This document shows, piece after piece, positions 2 through 9,630 of a stretch of DNA of 33,402 bases. A model generated the notes under the pieces. The model was given only the letters and a program-made list of their open reading frames with translations, ran no database searches and was not told where the DNA came from. The stretch covers positions 1 through 33,402 of the forward strand of contig CADCOT010000050.1 of NCBI GenBank assembly GCA_902803145.1, given 5' to 3'. The position numbers and the translations under genes are program-made. Origin of the DNA: an uncultured Spirochaetales bacterium (GTDB lineage: Bacteria > Spirochaetota > Spirochaetia > Sphaerochaetales > Sphaerochaetaceae). Position 1 is the stretch's first letter. The number at the start of each line of letters is the position of its first letter.

Positions 2-988
2 GTCAGAACATATGAGAATGTCCATGCAGTTGAAAATGTCAGTCTTTCCATACCTTCTAACCAGATTTTTGGAATAATCGGCCTTTCAGGTGCAGGCAAA
101 AGCACTCTTGTACGTCTTATAAGCCTCCTTGAAAAACCGGACAGCGGGGAAGTCTGGTACGATAATACTCGTGTGGACAATCTTCCTGAAAAGGAAATTA
201 TCCAGAGAAGACGTCGCATTGGAATGATATTCCAGAACTTCAACCTATTCTCATCCCGAACCGCAGGGCAGAATATTGCCTATCCAATGGAAATCTGCAA
301 GTATCCCAAGGAAGAAATTGAGGCAAGAGTAAAAGAGCTCTTGGAAGTTGTAGGTCTTTCAGACCGTAAAGATGCTCCCATCTCAACACTTTCCGGTGGT
401 CAGAAACAGAGAATTGCAATTGCAAGAGCTCTTGCATGTAAGCCGGACATTCTTTTCTGTGATGAAGCAACAAGTGCCCTTGATCCTAAAACAACACAGT
501 CAATTCTTGCCCTCATTAAGAGTATTCAGAGGAAGATGAATCTGACCGTAGTCATGATTACTCACCAGATGGAAGTTGTAAGAGACTCCTGCGATTATGT
601 AGCAGTTCTTTCAGACGGAGTTGTTGTTGAGCAGGGGCCTGTAAAAGATCTCTTTGAGCATCCTAAAACAAATGTTACCAAAGAATTCCTCAGTCATTTG
701 ACTTCAAATACACATAAGGAAACAGAAGAGGGTGTTGTTTTCTTCTCAGACCTTCCTGCACGCTATACTTTGCGTTTTATGGACAACAAGGTTGAAACTC
801 CTGTTATTTCAGACGTTATTCGCAAGTATGATGTTTCTTTCAACATTATCGGCGCCGGAATACAGAAGGTTGCAGATGTAAAGGTCGGAACCATGGTTTG
901 TGATATTTCCGGAAATCCTGATGCTGTTGCAAAAGCTGTAGCATCACTGAGAAAAAGAGGAATTACTGTAGAGGAGGCACAGGTATGA
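2..988 (+). CDS. metN: Methionine ABC transporter ATP-binding protein MetN (5' partial)
   Basis: ATPase of the MetNIQ D-/L-methionine importer, acting on the cytoplasmic face of the inner membrane. The reading frame is open from base 2, so the start lies outside the window; 328 residues are visible, and I estimate about 15 are missing compared with E. coli MetN (343). Walker A (GLSGAGKST) is encoded near 88-114, the ABC signature LSGGQKQR near 390-413, and Walker B (ILFCDEATS) near 448-474; the H-loop histidine is in MITHQ. The last ~80 residues form the C-terminal NIL (ACT-like) domain, which in characterised MetN binds methionine and shuts the transporter (transinhibition). The stop overlaps the metI start by 4 bp (ATGA), so the two are translationally coupled. 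Confidence 0.95.
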   Translation, partial: VRTYENVHAVENVSLSIPSNQIFGIIGLSGAGKSTLVRLISLLEKPDSGEVWYDNTRVDNLPEKEIIQRRRRIGMIFQNFNLFSSRTAGQNIAYPMEICKYPKEEIEARVKELLEVVGLSDRKDAPISTLSGGQKQRIAIARALACKPDILFCDEATSALDPKTTQSILALIKSIQRKMNLTVVMITHQMEVVRDSCDYVAVLSDGVVVEQGPVKDLFEHPKTNVTKEFLSHLTSNTHKETEEGVVFFSDLPARYTLRFMDNKVETPVISDVIRKYDVSFNIIGAGIQKVADVKVGTMVCDISGNPDAVAKAVASLRKRGITVEEAQV

Positions 989-1659
989 GCAACATAACTC
1001 CGCAGATTTGGGGTCTTATCTGGACAAGCACTCTTCAGACTCTTCAGATGGTTTCACTTTCAACTCTGTTCTCAGTTCTTTTGGGACTGCCGCTTGGAAT
1101 TTTCCTGTGCATCACAAGTCCTGCAAGCCAGGGCGGACTAAGACCAAAGCCTGTATTGAATGAAGTATTGAGCAGAATAGTAAACGTTTTGCGTTCTTTC
1201 CCGTTCATTATTCTTATTATCCTTTTGTTCCCTCTTTCAAGATTGATTGTAGGAACAGCCATAGGAACAAAATCTACAATAGTTCCGCTTTCAATAGCTG
1301 CAGCTCCTTTTGTTGCAAGACTTGTAGAAACTTCACTTAAAGAAGTTGATCCGGGAGTAATTCAGGCTGCAAGAACAATGGGTTCGACGGACAGTCAGAT
1401 TGTATTTAAGGTTCTGCTTCCTGAAGCTCTGCCTTCATTGATTGCTGGTCTTACACTTACAATCATCAACCTTATCGGTTACAGCGCAATGGCCGGAGCA
1501 GTAGGCGGCGGCGGACTTGGAGACTTGGCAATCCGTTACGGATATCAGCGCTTTAGAACAGATGTTCTGTTGGTTGCAGTTGTAATAATTATCATCCTTG
1601 TAGAGCTTATTCAGTTCATCGGCAACAAAATTAGTGCAAAAATGATGTCAAAACGCTGA
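985..1659 (+). CDS. metI: Methionine ABC transporter permease MetI
   Basis: Membrane-spanning permease of the methionine importer, 224 residues (E. coli MetI 217). About five hydrophobic segments are visible, and the EAA-type cytoplasmic loop that contacts MetN is in the stretch starting ARTMGSTDSQ. The chosen ATG overlaps the metN stop by 4 bp and has a strong Shine-Dalgarno GAGGAGG at 971-977, 7 bases upstream. No hairpin directly follows the stop; the next terminator-like hairpin is about 100 bases downstream and also overlaps a small leader ORF. MetI with MetN and MetQ makes a complete importer, so the substrate assignment is firm at family level. Confidence 0.95.
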   Translation: MSNITPQIWGLIWTSTLQTLQMVSLSTLFSVLLGLPLGIFLCITSPASQGGLRPKPVLNEVLSRIVNVLRSFPFIILIILLFPLSRLIVGTAIGTKSTIVPLSIAAAPFVARLVETSLKEVDPGVIQAARTMGSTDSQIVFKVLLPEALPSLIAGLTLTIINLIGYSAMAGAVGGGGLGDLAIRYGYQRFRTDVLLVAVVIIIILVELIQFIGNKISAKMMSKR

Positions 1660-1674
1660 ATATTTATGCAAAAC

Positions 1675-1690
1675 TGTTGCAATTGCAACA
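1675..1690. promoter_or_regulatory. 16-bp perfect palindrome overlapping a -35 box
   Basis: TGTTGCAATTGCAACA is perfectly self-complementary. It covers the -35 hexamer TTGCAA (1677-1682) of the promoter in front of the metQ leader. A palindrome in this position is the usual layout of a repressor operator. Which protein would bind it is unknown. Confidence 0.45.
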
Positions 1691-1706
1691 CGTTTCTGTG
1701 TATAGT
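1677..1706 (+). promoter_or_regulatory. Promoter for metQ leader transcript
   Basis: -35 TTGCAA (1677-1682), 18-bp spacer, -10 TATAGT (1701-1706). Transcription would start near 1713, immediately at the ATG of the small leader ORF (1714). Hence metQ would have a promoter separate from metNI. Confidence 0.5.
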
Positions 1707-1713
1707 ATGGCCA

Positions 1714-1779
1714 ATGACAACATTTAGTTTTAGAAAAACAACAATGTACTGCTCAATGATGATGCCCCTTGGGGCATAA
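1714..1779 (+). CDS. Candidate methionine-rich leader peptide (attenuator)
   Basis: A 21-codon ORF, ATG 1714 to TAA 1777-1779. Five of its residues are Met including the start; codons 15-17 (1756-1764) are three ATGs in a row, followed by codons for PLGA and stop. The third ATG codon lies in the 5' arm of the hairpin at 1762-1777. The expected transcript start (about 1713) would make it a leaderless mRNA; there is no Shine-Dalgarno sequence. Inference: under methionine starvation a ribosome stalled on the Met run would cover the 5' arm, stop the terminator from folding, and allow transcription into metQ. This follows the logic of amino-acid biosynthetic leader peptides. Chance occurrence cannot be ruled out for an ORF of this size. 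Confidence 0.5.
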   Translation: MTTFSFRKTTMYCSMMMPLGA

Positions 1780-1795
1780 TATTCTTTTATTTTTT
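1762..1795 (+). terminator. Terminator/attenuator hairpin between metI and metQ
   Basis: Inverted repeat ATGCCC (1762-1767) / GGGCAT (1772-1777) with a CTTG loop, followed by a T-rich tract (1779-1796, broken by A and C). It may end metNI transcripts and also act as the conditional terminator of the metQ leader. Confidence 0.6.
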
Positions 1796-1812
1796 CATAA
1801 CATTTTAATATT

Positions 1813-1849
1813 TATAGTAGGGACAGAAACATAAGTTTTCTGTTATAGT
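1813..1849 (+). promoter_or_regulatory. Possible second metQ promoter with inverted repeat
   Basis: Two TATAGT hexamers (1813-1818 and 1844-1849) lie close to metQ, and between them is an inverted repeat ACAGAAA (1823-1829) / TTTCTGT (1837-1843). No good -35 was found for either. This could be an additional promoter with an operator, or a 5' UTR hairpin. Confidence 0.25.
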
Positions 1850-1891: not shown

Positions 1892-2695
1892 ATGAAGAAA
1901 GTATTAGTTTTTGCATTAGTTCTTCTTACAGCATTCTGCGTATTTGCAGGTGGAAATAAAGAAGCCAAGTCAGGAAGGATAACACTTGTTATTGCATGTA
2001 CACCGGAACCTCATGCAAGCATGCTCAACCTTGTAAAGGATGATCTTGCAGCTCAGGGAATTGACCTTGTCATTCAGGAATACAATGAATACAACGTTGA
2101 GAATGAAGCAGTTGAAGCAGGTGAGGCAGATGCAAACTTCTTCCAGCATATTCCTTATATGAACAAATATATTTCAATGGGTTATCACCTTGTTAACGCA
2201 GGCGGAATCCATGTAGAGCCCCTTGCACTGTATTCAAAGAAGTACAAGTCTCTTTCTGCAATTCCCGCAGGTGCAACAATTGCAATTCCCAATGACCCCA
2301 CAAACGAGGGAAGAGCTCTTCTGCTTCTGCAGAGTGCAGGTCTTATCAAGCTTGCAGATTCTTCAAACCTTGAGGCAACAGAACTTGATGTTGTCAGCAA
2401 TCCCAAGAACCTGAAGTTCCATGCTGTAGACGCAGCAACACTTCCCAGAGTTCTTGAAGATGTTGATGCAGCAGTTATCAACGGAAACTATGCAATTCCT
2501 GCAGGTTTCAATGCTGCTAAGGACGGCCTTTTTGTTGAAGGCGCTGACAGCCCCTATGTAAACATTGTTACAGTAAAGGCCGGAAGGGAAAACGATCCTG
2601 CAATCAAAGCCCTTGTCTCAGCTCTTCAGAGCCAGAAGGTAAAGGATTGGGTTGCCAAGACTTATCCGGACGGAAACGTTGTTACAGTTTTCTAA
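1892..2695 (+). CDS. metQ: Methionine-binding lipoprotein MetQ (TpN32-like)
   Basis: Substrate-binding component of the methionine importer, 267 residues. I start it at ATG 1892 because GGGAG (1879-1883) lies 8 bases upstream; the in-frame ATG at 1877 has no ribosome site. An N-terminal signal (MKKVLVFALVLLTAFC) ends in a cysteine at residue 16, compatible with a relaxed spirochaetal lipobox; signal peptidase I cleavage after FA is the alternative. Conserved NLPA/MetQ stretches include EPHASML, NFFQHIPYM, HVEPLALYS, IPNDPTNEGRALLLL and AVINGNYAI, matching what I recall of T. pallidum TpN32 (Tp0821). It stands downstream of metNI with its own promoter and attenuator-like leader, and is closed by a strong terminator at 2714-2746. 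Confidence 0.93.
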   Translation: MKKVLVFALVLLTAFCVFAGGNKEAKSGRITLVIACTPEPHASMLNLVKDDLAAQGIDLVIQEYNEYNVENEAVEAGEADANFFQHIPYMNKYISMGYHLVNAGGIHVEPLALYSKKYKSLSAIPAGATIAIPNDPTNEGRALLLLQSAGLIKLADSSNLEATELDVVSNPKNLKFHAVDAATLPRVLEDVDAAVINGNYAIPAGFNAAKDGLFVEGADSPYVNIVTVKAGRENDPAIKALVSALQSQKVKDWVAKTYPDGNVVTVF

Positions 2696-2777: not shown

Positions 2778-5700
2778 GTGACAGAAAAAAAGACTGGTTT
2801 TTCGGTATTAGCTATTTGGGCATTCTCAATCGGAGCCGCCGTGGGATGGGGCTCTTTCATTGTGCCCTGCAGCACATATCTTCTTAAATCCGGTCTGCTT
2901 GGAACAATACTTGGTCTTTTTATGGGCCTTGCATTTGTTCTTGTGGTTGTATGGAACCTTCAGTATGTTATCTGCAAACATCCTTCTGCAGGTGGAATAT
3001 ACATATTTGAGAAAAAATCTTCCGGAGGAAGAGATTTAGGGTTTCTTGCTTTCTGGTTTATTCTTCTGACCTATCTTGGTCTCTTGTGGACAAATGTTAC
3101 TTCTCTGCCGCTTTTTGCAGGTTTCTTTCTTGGAAATACATTTAAATTCGGTTTCAGATACACCATTTTCGGATATGATGTCTGGCTCGGAGAAGTCCTT
3201 TTATCAATATTTGCACTGATTGTAATCGGTCTTATATGCAGCAGAAGCAAAAAATGTGCAAGTCGCATTGTAATTGTGTCAGCTCTTGTCTTTGTTATAT
3301 GTTTCATAGCCTGTGAATTTCTGGTTGCTCTGAAACATGACAGCTCTTTCAGTTATTCTCCGCTCTATATTGAAAATTCCAATGCCTTTGCCCAAATTCT
3401 GCGTATTGCAGTTATTTCACCATGGGCTTTCGTTGGTTTTGAGAATGTAGCCCATTTCTCTGAGGAATTCTCATTTCCAATTAAGAAAATACGCAAGATT
3501 CTTATTCTTTCAGTAGTAATTGCAGCTTTTCTCTATATTGCTGTAACTGCTCTTTCTGTTTCCGCATATCCGGCCGAATACGGCAGTTGGCTTGAATATA
3601 TTCGCGATATGGGAAACCTTAAGGGTCTTAAGGCTGTACCGGCTTTTTATGCCGCCTATACGTATTTGGGCAGACCCGGTGTAATCATCCTTATTCTTGC
3701 CTTGTTTGCAGTTATTCTGACAAGCCTTATCGGAAATATGATGGCACTGAGCCGTCTCATCAGTTCTGCAAGCAGAGAAGGGGATGTTCCTAGGGTACTT
3801 GATTCCCCCAATAAAGCCATTGTTGCTGTTGTTGTTTTTTCTGTATTTATACCTTTCCTCGGAAGAACAGCAATAGGATGGATAGTTGATATTTCTACAA
3901 TCTGCGCCACAATTGTGTATTGCATGGTTTCCCATGCAGCCTTAAGCACAGCTCGTAGGCTTGGTGATAAACCTGAACAGATAACCGGTTTGGTCGGCAT
4001 GATTATTATGCTGGTTTCAACACTTCTCATGCTTATTCCGGGACTTCTGCCTTCCCACAACATTGCGAAGGAAACATACATTTTGTTCATTGCATGGATT
4101 CTTCTTGGTCTGTTGTGTTTCCGTTCTCTACACATAAGAGAGAAAAAATCAGCAGAGGCAGGGCATGTTGTTATATGGATTATACCGCTTTTGCTTGTCT
4201 TGTTTTCCTCTATGATGCTGGTTTCCAAAATTACCGAAAGTGCAGCAGACAATGCAGTAGAAAGTATTTATGCGTATCATCAAGAGAACCCCTATTTTGA
4301 TACGGAAGAACAGCAGATTGCAATCAGAAAACAGTTCATTCAGGAGCAGGAAAAGAGAATAAGCAAAACAAATACTCTCTTCTCAATACTTTCAATCGGA
4401 CTGTTTACGATATTCTCCGGAGTAGTGTTTAGCAGTTACAAAGACTACAAATTGCTTGGCAAACGCCTTTCAGAGGCAGAGAAAATTGCATCTCTGAAAG
4501 AATCTGTAAGTGCAATGATTAACAACATGCCGGTTATGAGTTTTTCAAAGGATGCCAAGACGGGAAAGTATCTTGCATGTAACAAGATGTTCTCCGAGTA
4601 TGCAATCAAAGGCGAACCAGCAGATCTGATAGGACTTACGGATTATAACTTTGTTGATAAGGAACTTGCAGATAAATATGCACAAGAGGATAGGCTGGTT
4701 CTTGAAATGGACAAGCCTTTGGTTCAGTACGGTACATCTACTGATTCCTCCGGTAATGTCAGAAAAATACAATCAACAAAGCTCAAATACCACGATACAA
4801 ACGGCAGACTTTGCATTTTGGGAATGCTTGTTGACGTTACCGAAATGGAGAACCTCAAAAGTTCAAATGCCATCTATGAGAATATAGTCACCTCACTTAC
4901 AGAAGACTACTTCAACATGTTCTATGTAGATCTTGATACAGACAATTACATTGAATATGGCCTAAGAACAGAGGTGAAGCGTGATGCCTCAGAAAGAATA
5001 GGAGAAGGTTTCTTTAAAACAATTCTGACAAACGCCCGCTCCATTATCTATCCTGAAGATCAGGAAAGAGTCATGGCAGAACTGGACAGAGACCATATTC
5101 TGAAAACAATAGACAAGAACGGCTCTTTTGAAATTGAGTACCGCATTGTTCTAGGCGGAGTTCCTACATATGTCGGTCTGAAGGCAAGAAGAGCCTCCGG
5201 CAATGGCAACCATCTGATTGTCGGAATTAGCAACATAGATTCACAGGTTAAGGGTCGTGAGGCAATACGTCAGGCAGAAGAGGACAGTAAGACATATCTG
5301 AGACTCAGCGCCCTGAACGGAAACCTTTTGGTTTTGTACTACGTTGATCCCGAAACAGATTCTTACAGTGAATTCAGCACAACTCAGATTATTGACAATC
5401 TTGGCATTTCCAAGCATGGAGATGACTTTTTTACAACATCCTATCAGAACAGCTTGAAAACTATTCATCCGGATGATCTTGATTTGATTAAAACACAGTT
5501 CAACAAAGAAAATATTCTCAAAACTATAGAACGCAACAAAGTCTTCAGTTTGGAATATCGCCTGAAACTTCAGGATAGCTACAAATACATAATGCTCAAG
5601 GCCACAGAGGTTGAGGACTCCGGAAAGAGACTGATGATTGTCGGTGTCTTTGATATTGACGCCCAGGTCAGGCAGGAGCAGGAAATTGAACATGATCTGT

Positions 5701-6161
5701 CAGAGGCCAGAAGAATGGCAAGTAAGGACTCGCTGACCGGAGTGAGAAACAAGCGCGCCTATCAAGATGAAGAACATAAGCTTAACGAAAAAATTGCCTC
5801 CGGCGATGTTTCCGAGTTTGCACTTGTTGTCTTTGATATCAACGACCTTAAGCTTGAAAATGATACTTACGGTCATCAAGCCGGAGATGAATTGATTAAG
5901 AAGGCAAGCTACACTATTTGTAATATTTTCAAGCACAGCCCTGTATTCCGCATAGGTGGTGATGAATTTGCCGTAATCTGTCAAGGGGATGATTATCACT
6001 CCATAGATGAGCTTCTTGCAAAGATGGATGCTGCAAACAAGCGTTCTTTCAAGGTTGCCTATGGAATGTCACGTTATGACGGAAAGGGTACTGTGGCAGA
6101 TGTCTTTGAGCGTGCAGACCATAACATGTACAAAAACAAAGTCATGCTCAAAGAGATGTAA
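2778..6161 (+). CDS. APC-family permease fused to PAS domains and GGDEF diguanylate cyclase
   Basis: An 1127-residue membrane fusion protein. Residues 1-~460 are an amino acid-polyamine-organocation (APC) transporter-like domain: many membrane segments, a glycine-rich first helix (VGWGSFIVP) and the family loop RLISSASREGDVPRVL. Another membrane helix follows (~463-486), then a ~45-residue probably periplasmic loop and a helix at ~531-553. The cytoplasmic part has a PAS domain (~572-692), two mutually similar PAS-like modules (~695-825 and ~835-960), and a GGDEF domain (~975-1127) with intact DSLTGVRNKRAY and GGDEF (1060-1064). The RxxD inhibitory site is absent. Inference: an amino-acid-responsive c-di-GMP synthase (transceptor). 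The start is GTG 2778, without a Shine-Dalgarno sequence, 8 bp after a -10 box. Transport activity and substrate are unknown. Confidence 0.88.
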   Translation: MTEKKTGFSVLAIWAFSIGAAVGWGSFIVPCSTYLLKSGLLGTILGLFMGLAFVLVVVWNLQYVICKHPSAGGIYIFEKKSSGGRDLGFLAFWFILLTYLGLLWTNVTSLPLFAGFFLGNTFKFGFRYTIFGYDVWLGEVLLSIFALIVIGLICSRSKKCASRIVIVSALVFVICFIACEFLVALKHDSSFSYSPLYIENSNAFAQILRIAVISPWAFVGFENVAHFSEEFSFPIKKIRKILILSVVIAAFLYIAVTALSVSAYPAEYGSWLEYIRDMGNLKGLKAVPAFYAAYTYLGRPGVIILILALFAVILTSLIGNMMALSRLISSASREGDVPRVLDSPNKAIVAVVVFSVFIPFLGRTAIGWIVDISTICATIVYCMVSHAALSTARRLGDKPEQITGLVGMIIMLVSTLLMLIPGLLPSHNIAKETYILFIAWILLGLLCFRSLHIREKKSAEAGHVVIWIIPLLLVLFSSMMLVSKITESAADNAVESIYAYHQENPYFDTEEQQIAIRKQFIQEQEKRISKTNTLFSILSIGLFTIFSGVVFSSYKDYKLLGKRLSEAEKIASLKESVSAMINNMPVMSFSKDAKTGKYLACNKMFSEYAIKGEPADLIGLTDYNFVDKELADKYAQEDRLVLEMDKPLVQYGTSTDSSGNVRKIQSTKLKYHDTNGRLCILGMLVDVTEMENLKSSNAIYENIVTSLTEDYFNMFYVDLDTDNYIEYGLRTEVKRDASERIGEGFFKTILTNARSIIYPEDQERVMAELDRDHILKTIDKNGSFEIEYRIVLGGVPTYVGLKARRASGNGNHLIVGISNIDSQVKGREAIRQAEEDSKTYLRLSALNGNLLVLYYVDPETDSYSEFSTTQIIDNLGISKHGDDFFTTSYQNSLKTIHPDDLDLIKTQFNKENILKTIERNKVFSLEYRLKLQDSYKYIMLKATEVEDSGKRLMIVGVFDIDAQVRQEQEIEHDLSEARRMASKDSLTGVRNKRAYQDEEHKLNEKIASGDVSEFALVVFDINDLKLENDTYGHQAGDELIKKASYTICNIFKHSPVFRIGGDEFAVICQGDDYHSIDELLAKMDAANKRSFKVAYGMSRYDGKGTVADVFERADHNMYKNKVMLKEM

Positions 6162-6185: not shown

Positions 6186-6225
6186 AGTAGTTGAAACAAA
6201 AACTCAAACAAAACAGGACATAGAA

Positions 6226-6984
6226 ATGAAGAGATTCTTTTCATTATTGGCAATACTATTTGTAGCAACAGCTCTGTTTGCTACTTCAGGCGCTGTGCTC
6301 AAAGCAGGCGGAACATACACTTTTGTTAATCTCAACACTGCAACAGATGCAGAGTCAAACGGGTTTGAAGAATCTCTTAATGTTAAGTTCGGCGGCCTTG
6401 GTTTTGATATCGGAATCCTAGCTGATGTTACGGATAAATTTGCTGTTTTCAGCAACTTCACAATGATTTTCCCTAAGGATGCCACATTTAAAAACGGAGA
6501 AGAGACAAAGAAGCTTAGCAAGGCAGTTGAAGAAATTCAAACTGCATTGAAGGCTGTAGATGAAAAAGCTTCTGTCAGCTCCAAACTCAACTTCTTCAGC
6601 ATTTCAGCAGGTGCTGCATACAAGCTTGATTTCAAAGCTGTGAAACTTGCAATCGGTGCCGGTTTTACACTGAATGCAACCAATATGGCAGTAACCGGTT
6701 CTGCAAAGATTTCAGATACAGATTGTAAGCTTTCTATCAATCAGACTTATACTAACTTTGGCTTAAGCGGACTTGTTGATGCCAAGTATATGTTTACAGA
6801 TAGAATCGGTGTTGGTATTACGCTTTTCCCGCAGATGGGTTTTTACAACATTACAAATGCCTCCGTTACAGCTCCTGACGTAATCAAGGAGCAGGTAGGG
6901 CAGGATTTTGATACCGGAAATGTGGACGGCTTTAAAATCAGTTTTGCAATGCCTATTATTGTCGGAGTTTCTTACATATTCTAA
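6226..6984 (+). CDS. Outer-membrane beta-barrel protein, paralog 1 of 4
   Basis: 252 residues. I start at ATG 6226 because AGGA (6215-6218) is 7 bases upstream and the protein then begins with a classical signal peptide (residues 1-19, MKRFFSLLAILFVATALFA). The mature part alternates hydrophobic and polar residues, is rich in glycine and aromatic residues, and ends in phenylalanine (IVGVSYIF), the signal for BAM-assisted insertion of outer-membrane barrels. Shared blocks with the next three genes are FFSISAGAAYKLDF, VDAKYMFTDRIGVG and the C-terminus. A putative long periplasmic or surface loop lies at ~85-115 (charged, KNGEETKKLSKAVEE). Specific function (porin, adhesin or other) is not recognisable. 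Confidence 0.85.
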   Translation: MKRFFSLLAILFVATALFATSGAVLKAGGTYTFVNLNTATDAESNGFEESLNVKFGGLGFDIGILADVTDKFAVFSNFTMIFPKDATFKNGEETKKLSKAVEEIQTALKAVDEKASVSSKLNFFSISAGAAYKLDFKAVKLAIGAGFTLNATNMAVTGSAKISDTDCKLSINQTYTNFGLSGLVDAKYMFTDRIGVGITLFPQMGFYNITNASVTAPDVIKEQVGQDFDTGNVDGFKISFAMPIIVGVSYIF

Positions 6985-6989
6985 TTTTT

Positions 6990-7018
6990 TTGTAACTTTC
7001 TACAGATTGAGGTATTAT
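6990..7018 (+). promoter_or_regulatory. Promoter of beta-barrel paralog 2
   Basis: -35 TTGTAA (6990-6995), 17-bp spacer, -10 TATTAT (7013-7018). It lies just after the paralog 1 stop, so the paralogs are likely transcribed separately. Confidence 0.55.
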
Positions 7019-7029
7019 ATATGTGTCGG

Positions 7030-7049
7030 AACACCCACTGACGGGTGTT
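7030..7049 (+). other. Stem-loop at 5' end of paralog 2 mRNA
   Basis: AACACCC (7030-7036) / GGGTGTT (7043-7049), loop ACTGAC, with no T tract after it. It lies about 5 bases after the expected transcript start and 19 bases before the Shine-Dalgarno sequence, so it is not a typical terminator; a 5' mRNA-stabilising hairpin is more likely. Confidence 0.45.
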
Positions 7050-7080
7050 ATCACAAAACGAACAAATAGGAGAAACGATT

Positions 7081-7839
7081 ATGAAGAAATTATTCACAGT
7101 TCTTGCAGTCCTGCTCGTAGCAACAGCATTGTTTGCAGCAGCAGGCGTAACAGCCAAGGTAGGTGGCACATTTGCATTTGCAAATCTTAATTCAGCAACA
7201 GATTCAAACAGTGAAGACTTTGCCGAATCAATGAACATGAAATCCAACGCTTTCGGTTTTGATGTAGGCGCACAGTATGACATTGCAGACAATCTTGCAG
7301 TCTATGCTGATTTTGTTATGGTTTTCCCGACTGATGCCACTATGAAAGATGGCGGAGAAGAAAAGAAGCTTAGTGTAGCTATTAAAGAACTGGAAGATGG
7401 TTTTAAGACTATTGATGAAGATGCTTCAGTTTCTTATAAACTCAACTTCTTCAGTGTTTCAGCAGGTGTTGCATATAAGCTTGACTTTAATGCAGTAAAG
7501 CTTGCAGTAGGTGGTGGTCTTACACTCAATCGCGCTACAATGACAGTTAATGGTTCTGCAGAAGCATTAGACGAGGTTTATTCACTTTCTGTTAAGCAGA
7601 CATTCACAAATATCGGTCTGAATGCCCTTGTTGACGCAAAGTATATGTTCAATGACAACATTGGTGTCGGTGTAGCTCTCAATCCCCAGCTTGGCCTTTA
7701 CAACATCACAAAGGCATCAATGAAAATGTCTGAAGCATTAGAGGCATACTTTGAGGACTACTTTGATGATGGTAGCGTAAACGGTTTCAAGGTCAACTTT
7801 GCAATGCCCATCACAGTTGGTGTTTCTTACACATTCTGA
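7081..7839 (+). CDS. Outer-membrane beta-barrel protein, paralog 2 of 4
   Basis: 252 residues from ATG 7081, with AGGAG (7068-7072) 8 bases upstream. Signal peptide residues 1-19 (MKKLFTVLAVLLVATALFA) is nearly identical to those of its neighbours. The mature domain carries the family blocks FFSVSAGVAYKLDFNAVKLA, VDAKYMFNDNIGVGVALNPQ and C-terminal VNFAMPITVGVSYTF, with phenylalanine at the very end. It has the same length as paralog 1 and differs mainly in the charged loop segments. It has its own promoter and a strong terminator, so expression can be tuned independently. The function beyond being an outer-membrane barrel cannot be assigned. Confidence 0.87.
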   Translation: MKKLFTVLAVLLVATALFAAAGVTAKVGGTFAFANLNSATDSNSEDFAESMNMKSNAFGFDVGAQYDIADNLAVYADFVMVFPTDATMKDGGEEKKLSVAIKELEDGFKTIDEDASVSYKLNFFSVSAGVAYKLDFNAVKLAVGGGLTLNRATMTVNGSAEALDEVYSLSVKQTFTNIGLNALVDAKYMFNDNIGVGVALNPQLGLYNITKASMKMSEALEAYFEDYFDDGSVNGFKVNFAMPITVGVSYTF

Positions 7840-7862
7840 TTGTTGAATCAGGTTTGATTATT

Positions 7863-7890
7863 GACCCGTCTGCAAAGGCGGGTCTTTTTT
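7863..7890 (+). terminator. Intrinsic terminator after paralog 2
   Basis: Nine-base-pair stem GACCCGTCT (7863-7871) / AGGCGGGTC (7876-7884) with one G-U pair, a GCAA tetraloop and six T's (7885-7890). Confidence 0.9.
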
Positions 7891-7894
7891 GTTC

Positions 7895-7923
7895 TGTAAC
7901 CATATATCCATTTTTGGTATTAT
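7895..7923 (+). promoter_or_regulatory. Promoter of beta-barrel paralog 3
   Basis: TGTAAC (7895-7900), 17-bp spacer, TATTAT (7918-7923), inside a GGTATTATAT block that also precedes paralog 2. Confidence 0.5.
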
Positions 7924-7951
7924 ATTAACAACAGAAAAGGAGAAACAAATC

Positions 7952-8824
7952 ATGAAGAAATTGTTTTCAATTCTCGCAGTTCTGCTCGTAGCAACAGCAT
8001 TGTTTGCTCAGGTAGGCCTCACAGTTAAGGCTGGCGGTACATTCGGTTTTGCTTCTTACAAATCAGTTGCAGAAGGCAAGGATAATAATGGCGAAACAGA
8101 AAAATTTGAAGATTCTATGGTTGACAAGGCCCTTGTTCTCAAAACCAATGGTTTCGGTTTTGATGTAGGTGTTCAGTATGACATTACTGATAAACTTCTT
8201 GCCTATGTTGATTTCAACATGCTGTTCCCAGGAGATGCAAAGGTCAATTTTCCTGATTCTTTTTTGATTTCAGATCTTAAATATTATGGAGCTCCTGATG
8301 ATGTTATTAAGAAGTATGTTGTTGATGTTGATGCTGAAGATTTATTGTTTAAGGTTTACTCAATTAAGGGCTCGATTGCGGACTTGAATGAGTACATTGA
8401 AGGGTTTAAGGATCATGTGACTGTTTTAGCAAAGAATGCATTTTTCAGTGTATCAGCAGGCGCTGCATACAAGTTTGATTTCAACCCTGTAAAGCTTGCA
8501 GTCGGTGGTGGCTTAACACTTAACAAAGCATCCGCAAAATTTGTTATGACTCCTGAAGAGGGGGCCGCTGAATATTATGGCAAGATAGATGCTTCTTATA
8601 CCTTTACAACATTTGGTCTCAACGCAATGGTTGATGCAAAATACATGGTTGCAGAGAATGTCGGTGTTGGCGTAACTCTTATTCCTCAGGTCGGTCTCTA
8701 CAACAAGTCCGTACTTGAAGTAAGTGCGACTTATGTTGAGACTGTGGAAGGAACTGTTACAGCCAAGGGTTTTGCTCTCAGCTTTGCAATGCCCATCGTT
8801 GTCGGAGTTTCCTACACATTCTGA
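7952..8824 (+). CDS. Outer-membrane beta-barrel protein, paralog 3 of 4 (long form)
   Basis: 290 residues from ATG 7952, with AAGGAG (7937-7942) 9 bases upstream. Signal peptide residues 1-19 (MKKLFSILAVLLVATALFA). It is about 40 residues longer than paralogs 1 and 2; the extra length sits in an acidic variable segment (~100-160, including DVDAEDLLFKVYSIKGSIAD) just before the conserved FFSVSAGAAYKFDFNPVKLA block, and in a second loop near EEGAAEYYGKIDAS. The C-terminus is LSFAMPIVVGVSYTF. Loop-length variation on a conserved barrel is typical of surface-exposed loops, though exposure is inferred. It is flanked by its own promoter and terminator. Confidence 0.87.
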   Translation: MKKLFSILAVLLVATALFAQVGLTVKAGGTFGFASYKSVAEGKDNNGETEKFEDSMVDKALVLKTNGFGFDVGVQYDITDKLLAYVDFNMLFPGDAKVNFPDSFLISDLKYYGAPDDVIKKYVVDVDAEDLLFKVYSIKGSIADLNEYIEGFKDHVTVLAKNAFFSVSAGAAYKFDFNPVKLAVGGGLTLNKASAKFVMTPEEGAAEYYGKIDASYTFTTFGLNAMVDAKYMVAENVGVGVTLIPQVGLYNKSVLEVSATYVETVEGTVTAKGFALSFAMPIVVGVSYTF

Positions 8825-8848
8825 TTGTCATAAGCAATTTTATCCTGT

Positions 8849-8896
8849 ACCCGCCTGAAATGAACTGGGGTCAGTTCAAAAAGGGCGGGTTTTTTA
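8849..8896 (+). terminator. Composite terminator after paralog 3
   Basis: Outer stem ACCCGCC (8849-8855) / GGCGGGT (8884-8890) leads straight into a T run (to 8896). The 28-base interior holds a second small hairpin, TGAACT (8861-8866) / AGTTCA (8873-8878). Confidence 0.8.
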
Positions 8897-8917
8897 TTAA
8901 ACAGGTATACAATAATC

Positions 8918-8947
8918 TTGCTGATTATTATTTGACTCTTCTAAAAT
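8918..8947 (+). promoter_or_regulatory. Possible promoter of paralog 4
   Basis: TTGCTG (8918-8923), 18 bp, TAAAAT (8942-8947). Unlike paralogs 1-3 there is no TGTAAC box at this spacing, so the assignment is weak. Confidence 0.25.
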
Positions 8948-8967
8948 CAAACTCAAAGGAGAAAGAA

Positions 8968-9630
8968 ATGAAAAAACTTCTTACAGTTCTTATAGTGTTG
9001 CTTGTTGCAACAGCATTGTTCGCAGGCGTAACAGTCAAGGCAGGCGGTACATTTGCATATGCAAATTTCAAGAGTCCGGTTGATAAAAATACATTTTTAT
9101 TTAGCGATGAAATGAATTTGAAGACCAGCGGCTTCGGTTTCGATGCAGGTGTTCTTGCAGATATATCCGACAATCTTGCTGCATATGCAGAGTTCCGCAT
9201 GGTTTTCCCGAAGGATGCTGATTTTAAAGACGGCAATGATGACTGGGAGAAACTAAGCGATGATAGTAAAGGCCTGAAAATCCACTTCTACAACATTTCA
9301 ACAGGTGTTGCCTACAAGCTTGATTTCAATGCTGTGAAGCTTGCAGTCGGAGCCGGCGTTTCAATGAGCAGCTTAGTAGTACATAACAAGATTGAAGAAG
9401 CTGAGTTTAAGATTTCACATTCATCCATCGGTCTGAATGTACTGGTTGATGCAAAGTACATGTTTACAGAGAACATCGGAGCCGGTGTAACAATTAATCC
9501 TCAGATTGGTCTGTTTGACATTGCAAGCGGAACATCAAAAATGGGTGAGCTCATCAAGAATGACAAGATAACCGGTTTCAAGGTCAACTTTGCATTGCCC
9601 GTCACAGTTGGTGTTTCCTACACATTCTGA
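8968..9630 (+). CDS. Outer-membrane beta-barrel protein, paralog 4 of 4 (short form)
   Basis: 220 residues from ATG 8968, with AAAGGAG (8955-8961) 6 bases upstream. Signal peptide residues 1-19 (MKKLLTVLIVLLVATALFA). It is the shortest of the four; the variable loop after the DGNDDWEKLSDD segment is reduced. Conserved blocks are YNISTGVAYKLDFNAVKLAV, VDAKYMFTENIGAGVTINPQ and the C-terminal VNFALPVTVGVSYTF. The four genes form a head-to-tail array that probably arose by duplication followed by loop divergence. Precise function unknown. Confidence 0.86.
   Translation: MKKLLTVLIVLLVATALFAGVTVKAGGTFAYANFKSPVDKNTFLFSDEMNLKTSGFGFDAGVLADISDNLAAYAEFRMVFPKDADFKDGNDDWEKLSDDSKGLKIHFYNISTGVAYKLDFNAVKLAVGAGVSMSSLVVHNKIEEAEFKISHSSIGLNVLVDAKYMFTENIGAGVTINPQIGLFDIASGTSKMGELIKNDKITGFKVNFALPVTVGVSYTF

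Follow-up and report, generated by a model that had tools for sequence, protein, structure and literature searches.

A methionine-codon leader joined to a conserved hairpin precedes metQ in Sphaerochaetaceae and may act as a ribosome-read attenuator

In the Sphaerochaetaceae, genes for the methionine-binding protein MetQ are preceded by a short open reading frame (ORF) rich in Met codons that runs into a hairpin, and comparison among relatives indicates that this arrangement is real and old. It was analyzed in a stretch of 33,402 nucleotides from an uncultured Spirochaetales bacterium (contig CADCOT010000050.1; hereafter the window) and in related genomes. Judged from these sequences, a Met-codon leader of this kind probably regulates metQ, and we also consider it likely that the whole is best explained by a leader that is translated, senses methionine and controls metQ through the dwell time of ribosomes on Met codons. 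Control by leader peptides is textbook knowledge for Trp, His, Leu, Thr and Phe, and the known controls of methionine genes are SAM riboswitches, T-boxes and repressors (MetJ). These systems share with the metQ leader the control of methionine genes, whereas the leader would act through translation of Met codons. No precedent for a Met leader peptide, or for any leader peptide in spirochaetes, was found in Rfam or in literature searches (most subscription journals lying outside their reach). The occurrence of leaders before metQ in dozens of gut spirochaetes suggests that methionine is sensed by the reading speed of the ribosome, a device known for other amino acids. A conserved Met leader would widen the leader-peptide rule, and it brings a puzzle of its own, since every leader also starts with Met.

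The gene order read from the window sequence is metN (partial), metI, leader and metQ, and the features described below lie on the forward strand. Upstream of the leader is the metI permease gene (985..1659; PF00528), and downstream is metQ (1892..2695; NlpA lipoprotein family, methionine-binding; PF03180, E=3.4e-86) with a Shine-Dalgarno (SD) sequence at 1879-1883. A preliminary description of this DNA had placed a promoter, a 21-codon ORF with Met at codons 11 and 15-17, and a hairpin on the last Met codon between the two genes, and direct reading confirmed all of them. The promoter of the leader/metQ transcript (TTGCAA-18-TATAGT, 1677..1706) has its -35 box at 1677-1682, a spacer of 18 nt and its -10 box at 1701-1706; it has 9/12 consensus matches, a grade of site that is no commoner than in shuffles, and the closest relatives have TTGCA-N17-TAYAGT at the equivalent position. 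A perfect palindrome, TGTTGCAATTGCAACA, covers the -35 box (1675-1690); an operator at this site was considered and rejected, as relatives keep only TGTTGCA, which is the -35 region. The leader ORF (1714..1779; 21 codons encoding MTTFSFRKTTMYCSMMMPLGA, with coding part 1714-1776 and TAA at 1777-1779) has homologs in 61 non-redundant leaders. Its Met control-codon region (1744..1764), in which Met is kept across leaders, includes the ATG of codon 11 (1744-1746) and three consecutive ATGs at codons 15-17 (1756-1764), and the intervening codons also encode Tyr-Cys-Ser, which had been overlooked before. The hairpin, P2 (ATGCCC-CTTG-GGGCAT, 1762..1777), overlaps the last Met codon and the stop: its 5' arm opens on the third ATG of codons 15-17, and the 6-bp stem has an energy of -8.1 kcal/mol.

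The genome had been taken for a relative of Treponema; it belongs to the Sphaerochaetaceae, and its relatives are gut genomes of Sphaerochaetaceae/Spirochaetales together with Bullifex porci. In these relatives it was not the hairpin alone that persisted, and the ORF, the Met codons and the hairpin were all kept before methionine-binding protein genes. Their metI-metQ spacers contain an SD sequence, a short ORF with a Met-rich end and then ATGCCC-NNNN-GGGCAT. We collected 95 leaders in Sphaerochaetaceae (61 non-redundant), nearly all ahead of metQ-type genes. The pattern ATGATGCCCN{2,8}GGGC was present in 95 of the 139 family genomes, and the reversed control pattern was near zero. When 84,980 species genomes were scanned with a stricter pattern, all matches with a leader-type ORF were spirochaetal, and nearly all of them had metQ behind (at two sites, L149 and L185, the stretch first read stopped soon after the motif, and metQ was present when the sites were read further). 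The remaining ∼25 matches came from other phyla and had neither metQ nor a leader-type ORF, most of them lying inside longer open frames. On the basis of the reversed control and the absence of leader-type ORFs from the non-spirochaetal matches, a chance origin was rejected. Class-wide pattern searches for leaders outside the family gave matches at about chance level only. One carrier, B. porci NM-380-WT-3C1, is cultured and has two copies of the leader (L191 and L205). The leader also precedes a gene for another, divergent MetQ, as well as a gene for a MetN-type ABC ATPase and genes for family-5 (oligopeptide) binding proteins; the copies before genes other than metQ (L118, L119 and L120) hint at a wider regulon.

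The short ORF appears to be translated. In frame 0, 56 of the 61 non-redundant leaders have an ATG that follows an SD and opens into the Met run (2 and 0 in the other frames), and the alignment gaps among them are multiples of 3 without exception (190/190). Met accounts for 25.5% of the residues after the start (Cys for 3.6%), with a mean of 5.2 non-start Met per peptide and a minimum of 3, at least three Met being also the ORF criterion by which 18 of the 95 leaders were recognised. Met codons shift, vanish and are gained (L031 has MMMM, L037 has gained an MQ, and MCMA is duplicated in L244 compared with L243), and the region takes forms such as MMMM, MCM and MMC in which Met stays. Codons that move and expand in this way fit control codons better than a fixed peptide. 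The same variation bears on whether the nascent chain (...MMMP) is an arrest peptide of the TnaC kind, detecting SAM or free methionine within the exit tunnel as TnaC detects tryptophan. The peptide is short and its end is conserved, with Pro after the last Met in 54 of 61 leaders; but this Pro gives way to Arg-stop in five leaders and to Cys in two, the Met positions move, and the residues upstream are unconserved, so that the conserved nascent-chain residues beyond the control residue that mark a TnaC-type system were not found. We regard an arrest peptide as very improbable.

The invariance of P2 in the first leader set was an artefact of the search pattern, and P2 was re-examined in metQ-upstream regions fetched pattern-free, in which leaders were recognised by an ORF with at least three Met. 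In the divergent MetQ copies (L264-L268), ATGCGC-loop-GCGCA takes the place of ATGCCC-NNNN-GGGCAT, both arms being changed and the pairing kept. The change from CCC/GGG to CGC/GCG accompanies that from Pro to Arg, with the stop shifted into the loop, and P2 loops vary freely in sequence. Such a compensatory change, made at the cost of Pro, indicates that pairing and Met codons are under selection and the C-terminus of the peptide is not. RNAalifold on a MAFFT alignment recovered P2 alone because the spacing between SD and ATG varies, and a swap test was used instead.

The preliminary description had not included a second helix, P1, which most relatives have and in which the leader SD sequence (GGAGGACAT) can pair with the Met-Ser codons of the same leader (ATGTCCTCC). 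Variants of the two segments co-vary: GAGAGACAT occurs with ATGTCTCTC, GGAGGAAAGACAT with ATGTCTTTCTTC, and GGAGGCA with TGCCTC. The mean duplex energy was -15.3 kcal/mol for a leader's own segments versus -12.2 kcal/mol when segments from different species were paired (permutation p<5e-5, n=59), and the covariation was also tested in sets of n=32-33. In a strict set of nine very distant leaders it persisted but was weak (p=0.04, with one of eight control windows at p=0.039). Ten of eleven other region pairs had no covariation, and one was borderline (downstream region with the Met segment, p=0.057). Sequestration of the metQ SD by the Met codons was rejected for lack of covariation (p=0.84), and so was an outer stem (5' CCATCA / TGATG) that appears in the minimum-energy folds of several relatives (p=0.52). 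No mutually exclusive antiterminator was found, SD with Met codons being the only pair to co-vary among the regions tested. That control codons are predicted to pair with the ribosome-binding site of their own leader appears to be a new observation; it is open to test, and a cultured carrier exists. The Cys codon TGC often stands beside Met (M-C-M; L053, L054, L239-L245 and L255), as if sulfur amino acids may be sensed together; alternatively, TGC may serve P1 pairing.

Two conserved helices, P1 and P2, and folding better than that of shuffles (mean z -2.6) would also be expected of a purely RNA-based element, such as a metabolite riboswitch, in which the ORF would play no part. Such an element is contradicted by the unconserved loops, by gaps that all preserve the frame and by the retention of frame, SD and ATG; moreover, an Rfam search at the leader gave no match, including to SAM riboswitch and T-box families. 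We consider it very improbable. SAM-I riboswitches were found in a few family members (G010, G015 and G017), and none in the window's genome.

The stretch that follows P2 is nearly free of G, another feature absent from the preliminary description. In the window it is G-poor and U-rich (1778..1820; C-containing in relatives) and is a candidate pause/termination or Rho-loading region. Across leaders, G makes up 7%, 2% and 6% of successive tens of bases, and C ∼25%, over 40 nt. The T-run begins 4-6 nt past the stem, and the mean terminator tail score is 0.65 versus 1.30 for random AT-rich sequence. The tail of the window (AATATTCTTTTATTTTTTC) is U-rich, but its run starts 5 nt past the stem, and the usual T-tail score rates it as a weak terminator; the tails of several divergent copies (L264, L266 and L267) are very poor in U. 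NusG-dependent pausing occurs at T-rich TTNTTT motifs, and TTNTTT was present in 25 of 61 tails versus 8.1 after mononucleotide shuffling. P2 resembles a pause hairpin no less than it does an intrinsic terminator. Thus, of the Met leader-peptide attenuator proposed in the preliminary description, the Met-codon ORF joined to a hairpin before metQ stands, whereas the late or missing U-run makes a terminator role for P2 less certain. We give transcription termination as the output of the leader somewhat less than an even chance. Methionine might also be sensed by waiting ribosomes with a different output: ribosomes that wait or queue could protect the 5' end of the mRNA from decay, or the leader could govern the loading of Rho in the G-free region. 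The late or missing U-run and the C-containing, G-depleted 40 nt speak for this, as do the Rho gene encoded in the window's genome and the C-rich, U-poor tail retained by the MMMR-stop copies; but a ribosome stopped at the Met codons leaves the G-free region uncovered, so that blocking of Rho would need an extra step. We hold such an output to be possible, though rather doubtful. Also in the G-free stretch, ∼15-25 nt after P2, the motif CCACSACAT recurs (L024, L026, L060, L107, L180 and L264-L267); AC[CG]ACAT was found in 11 of 52 leaders versus 0.7 in shuffles. A second small hairpin resembling GGTCCCTNNGGGACATC lies ∼50-60 nt after P2, between leader and metQ, in many species (L057, L058, L060, L097, L242 and others).

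If the leader senses methionine through translation, as we favor, a shortage of charged Met-tRNA would make ribosomes wait on the Met codons. A waiting ribosome would hold P1 open, so that the leader could be reloaded, and a ribosome at the last Met codons would cover the 5' arm of P2, which then could not act on RNA polymerase, and transcription would continue into metQ. With plentiful methionine, the ribosome would leave at once, P1 would close the leader SD and P2 would fold; polymerase would then pause in the T-rich stretch and either stop there or be removed by Rho in the G-free region. The step from ribosome dwell to metQ may be pausing, intrinsic or Rho termination, or mRNA stability. 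Masking of the 5' arm by a stalled ribosome, as originally suggested, fits waiting at the last three Met codons and fails at the earlier conserved ones, where a ribosome would leave P2 free and starvation could then favor termination. Terminators that lie within the first 100 bp of a coding sequence are reported to be efficient in E. coli (PMC4824070). Taken together, these two points make it uncertain in which direction the response runs and what the output step is.

In its sequence features, the leader appears to work like an amino-acid attenuator. It shares with trpL, hisL, thrL and the ilv/leu attenuators a short ORF in which codons for the amino acid handled by the downstream gene form a run, followed by an RNA hairpin before the structural gene; the reading-frame and gap counts support such an ORF, and the abundance of Met, with Met transporter genes downstream, supports control codons for the end product. 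It differs from those systems in using Met, in a hairpin that begins on the final control codon, in a stop that lies in the hairpin loop or at the hairpin's 3' end, in a tail that has no clean U-run and in an SD that pairs with the leader's own control codons. With the U-run late or absent and no antiterminator found, membership in the class is incomplete; the ribosome may mask P2 directly. The cys-operon leader peptides of Actinobacteria have Cys codons near the stop, no clear terminator and a pyrimidine-rich stretch proposed for Rho (PMC1262725). A run of sulfur amino acid codons near the stop, the lack of a clear terminator and a pyrimidine-rich stretch are thus common to both, whereas the cys leaders use Cys rather than Met, have no conserved hairpin and belong to another phylum and other genes. 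The same comparative study found no conserved RNA structures before methionine operons in Actinobacteria (PMC1262725). In the LEU element of that phylum, the control-codon run was proposed to pair with an SD box that belongs to the structural gene leuA (PMC1262725); control codons are paired with an SD box in both cases, but in the metQ leader this is its own and not that of metQ (p=0.84). For tlrB of Bacillus subtilis, a leader peptide combined with RNA polymerase pausing (NusG-pause/ribosome-stall) that responds to an antibiotic has been described (PMC6851288). The resemblance lies in the leader peptide and in a T-rich stretch at which polymerase may pause; tlrB is antibiotic-responsive, while a pause at the metQ leader is suggested by motif enrichment only.

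The window departs from its relatives at the start of the leader. The leaderless mRNA start previously proposed is a fair description here, where only 7 nt (1707..1713) separate the -10 box from the ATG and no SD is present, but it is not the rule in the family, nearly all relatives having a strong SD. The nearest relative by MetQ (L180 in G158; 75%) reads TATAGT-AAGGCCATCTCAGATAGGAGGAATGCATA-ATGACAACA and the window TATAGT-ATGGCCA-ATGACAACA, which is ∼22 nt fewer and without the SD. The anti-SD codons (ATGTCCTCC in relatives) have decayed to TACTGCTCA (1747..1755), P1 is lost and folding is no better than in shuffles (z -0.28). A leaderless start is thus plausible here and is a derived exception, the evidence coming from one metagenome-assembled genome. 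The window's leader alone might instead be a decaying relic that perhaps no longer regulates, in line with the missing ∼22 nt, the decayed anti-SD codons and the finding that no other genome of the window's genus holds the locus. The ORF, the Met run, P2 and the promoter are nevertheless intact, the spacing fits a leaderless mRNA, and another SD-less leader, L108, also has a -10-like box just before its ATG (TAGATT, 6 nt upstream by eye; the automatic promoter scan chose another site), and a relic seems unlikely to us. We give an even chance to the broader proposal of a class of ribosome-read methionine attenuators confined to Sphaerochaetaceae, whose control codons would both measure Met-tRNA and lock their own SD, so that only a waiting ribosome would keep the leader open, and in which a few lineages would have dropped the lock and gone leaderless. 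Elsewhere in the window, the gene after metQ (2778-6161) encodes an unusual transporter-signalling fusion that joins PAS domains and a diguanylate cyclase (GGDEF) domain to an amino-acid permease, and ∼6200-9630 holds a row of small outer-membrane beta-barrel proteins that resemble one another (PF13505 in the one tested).
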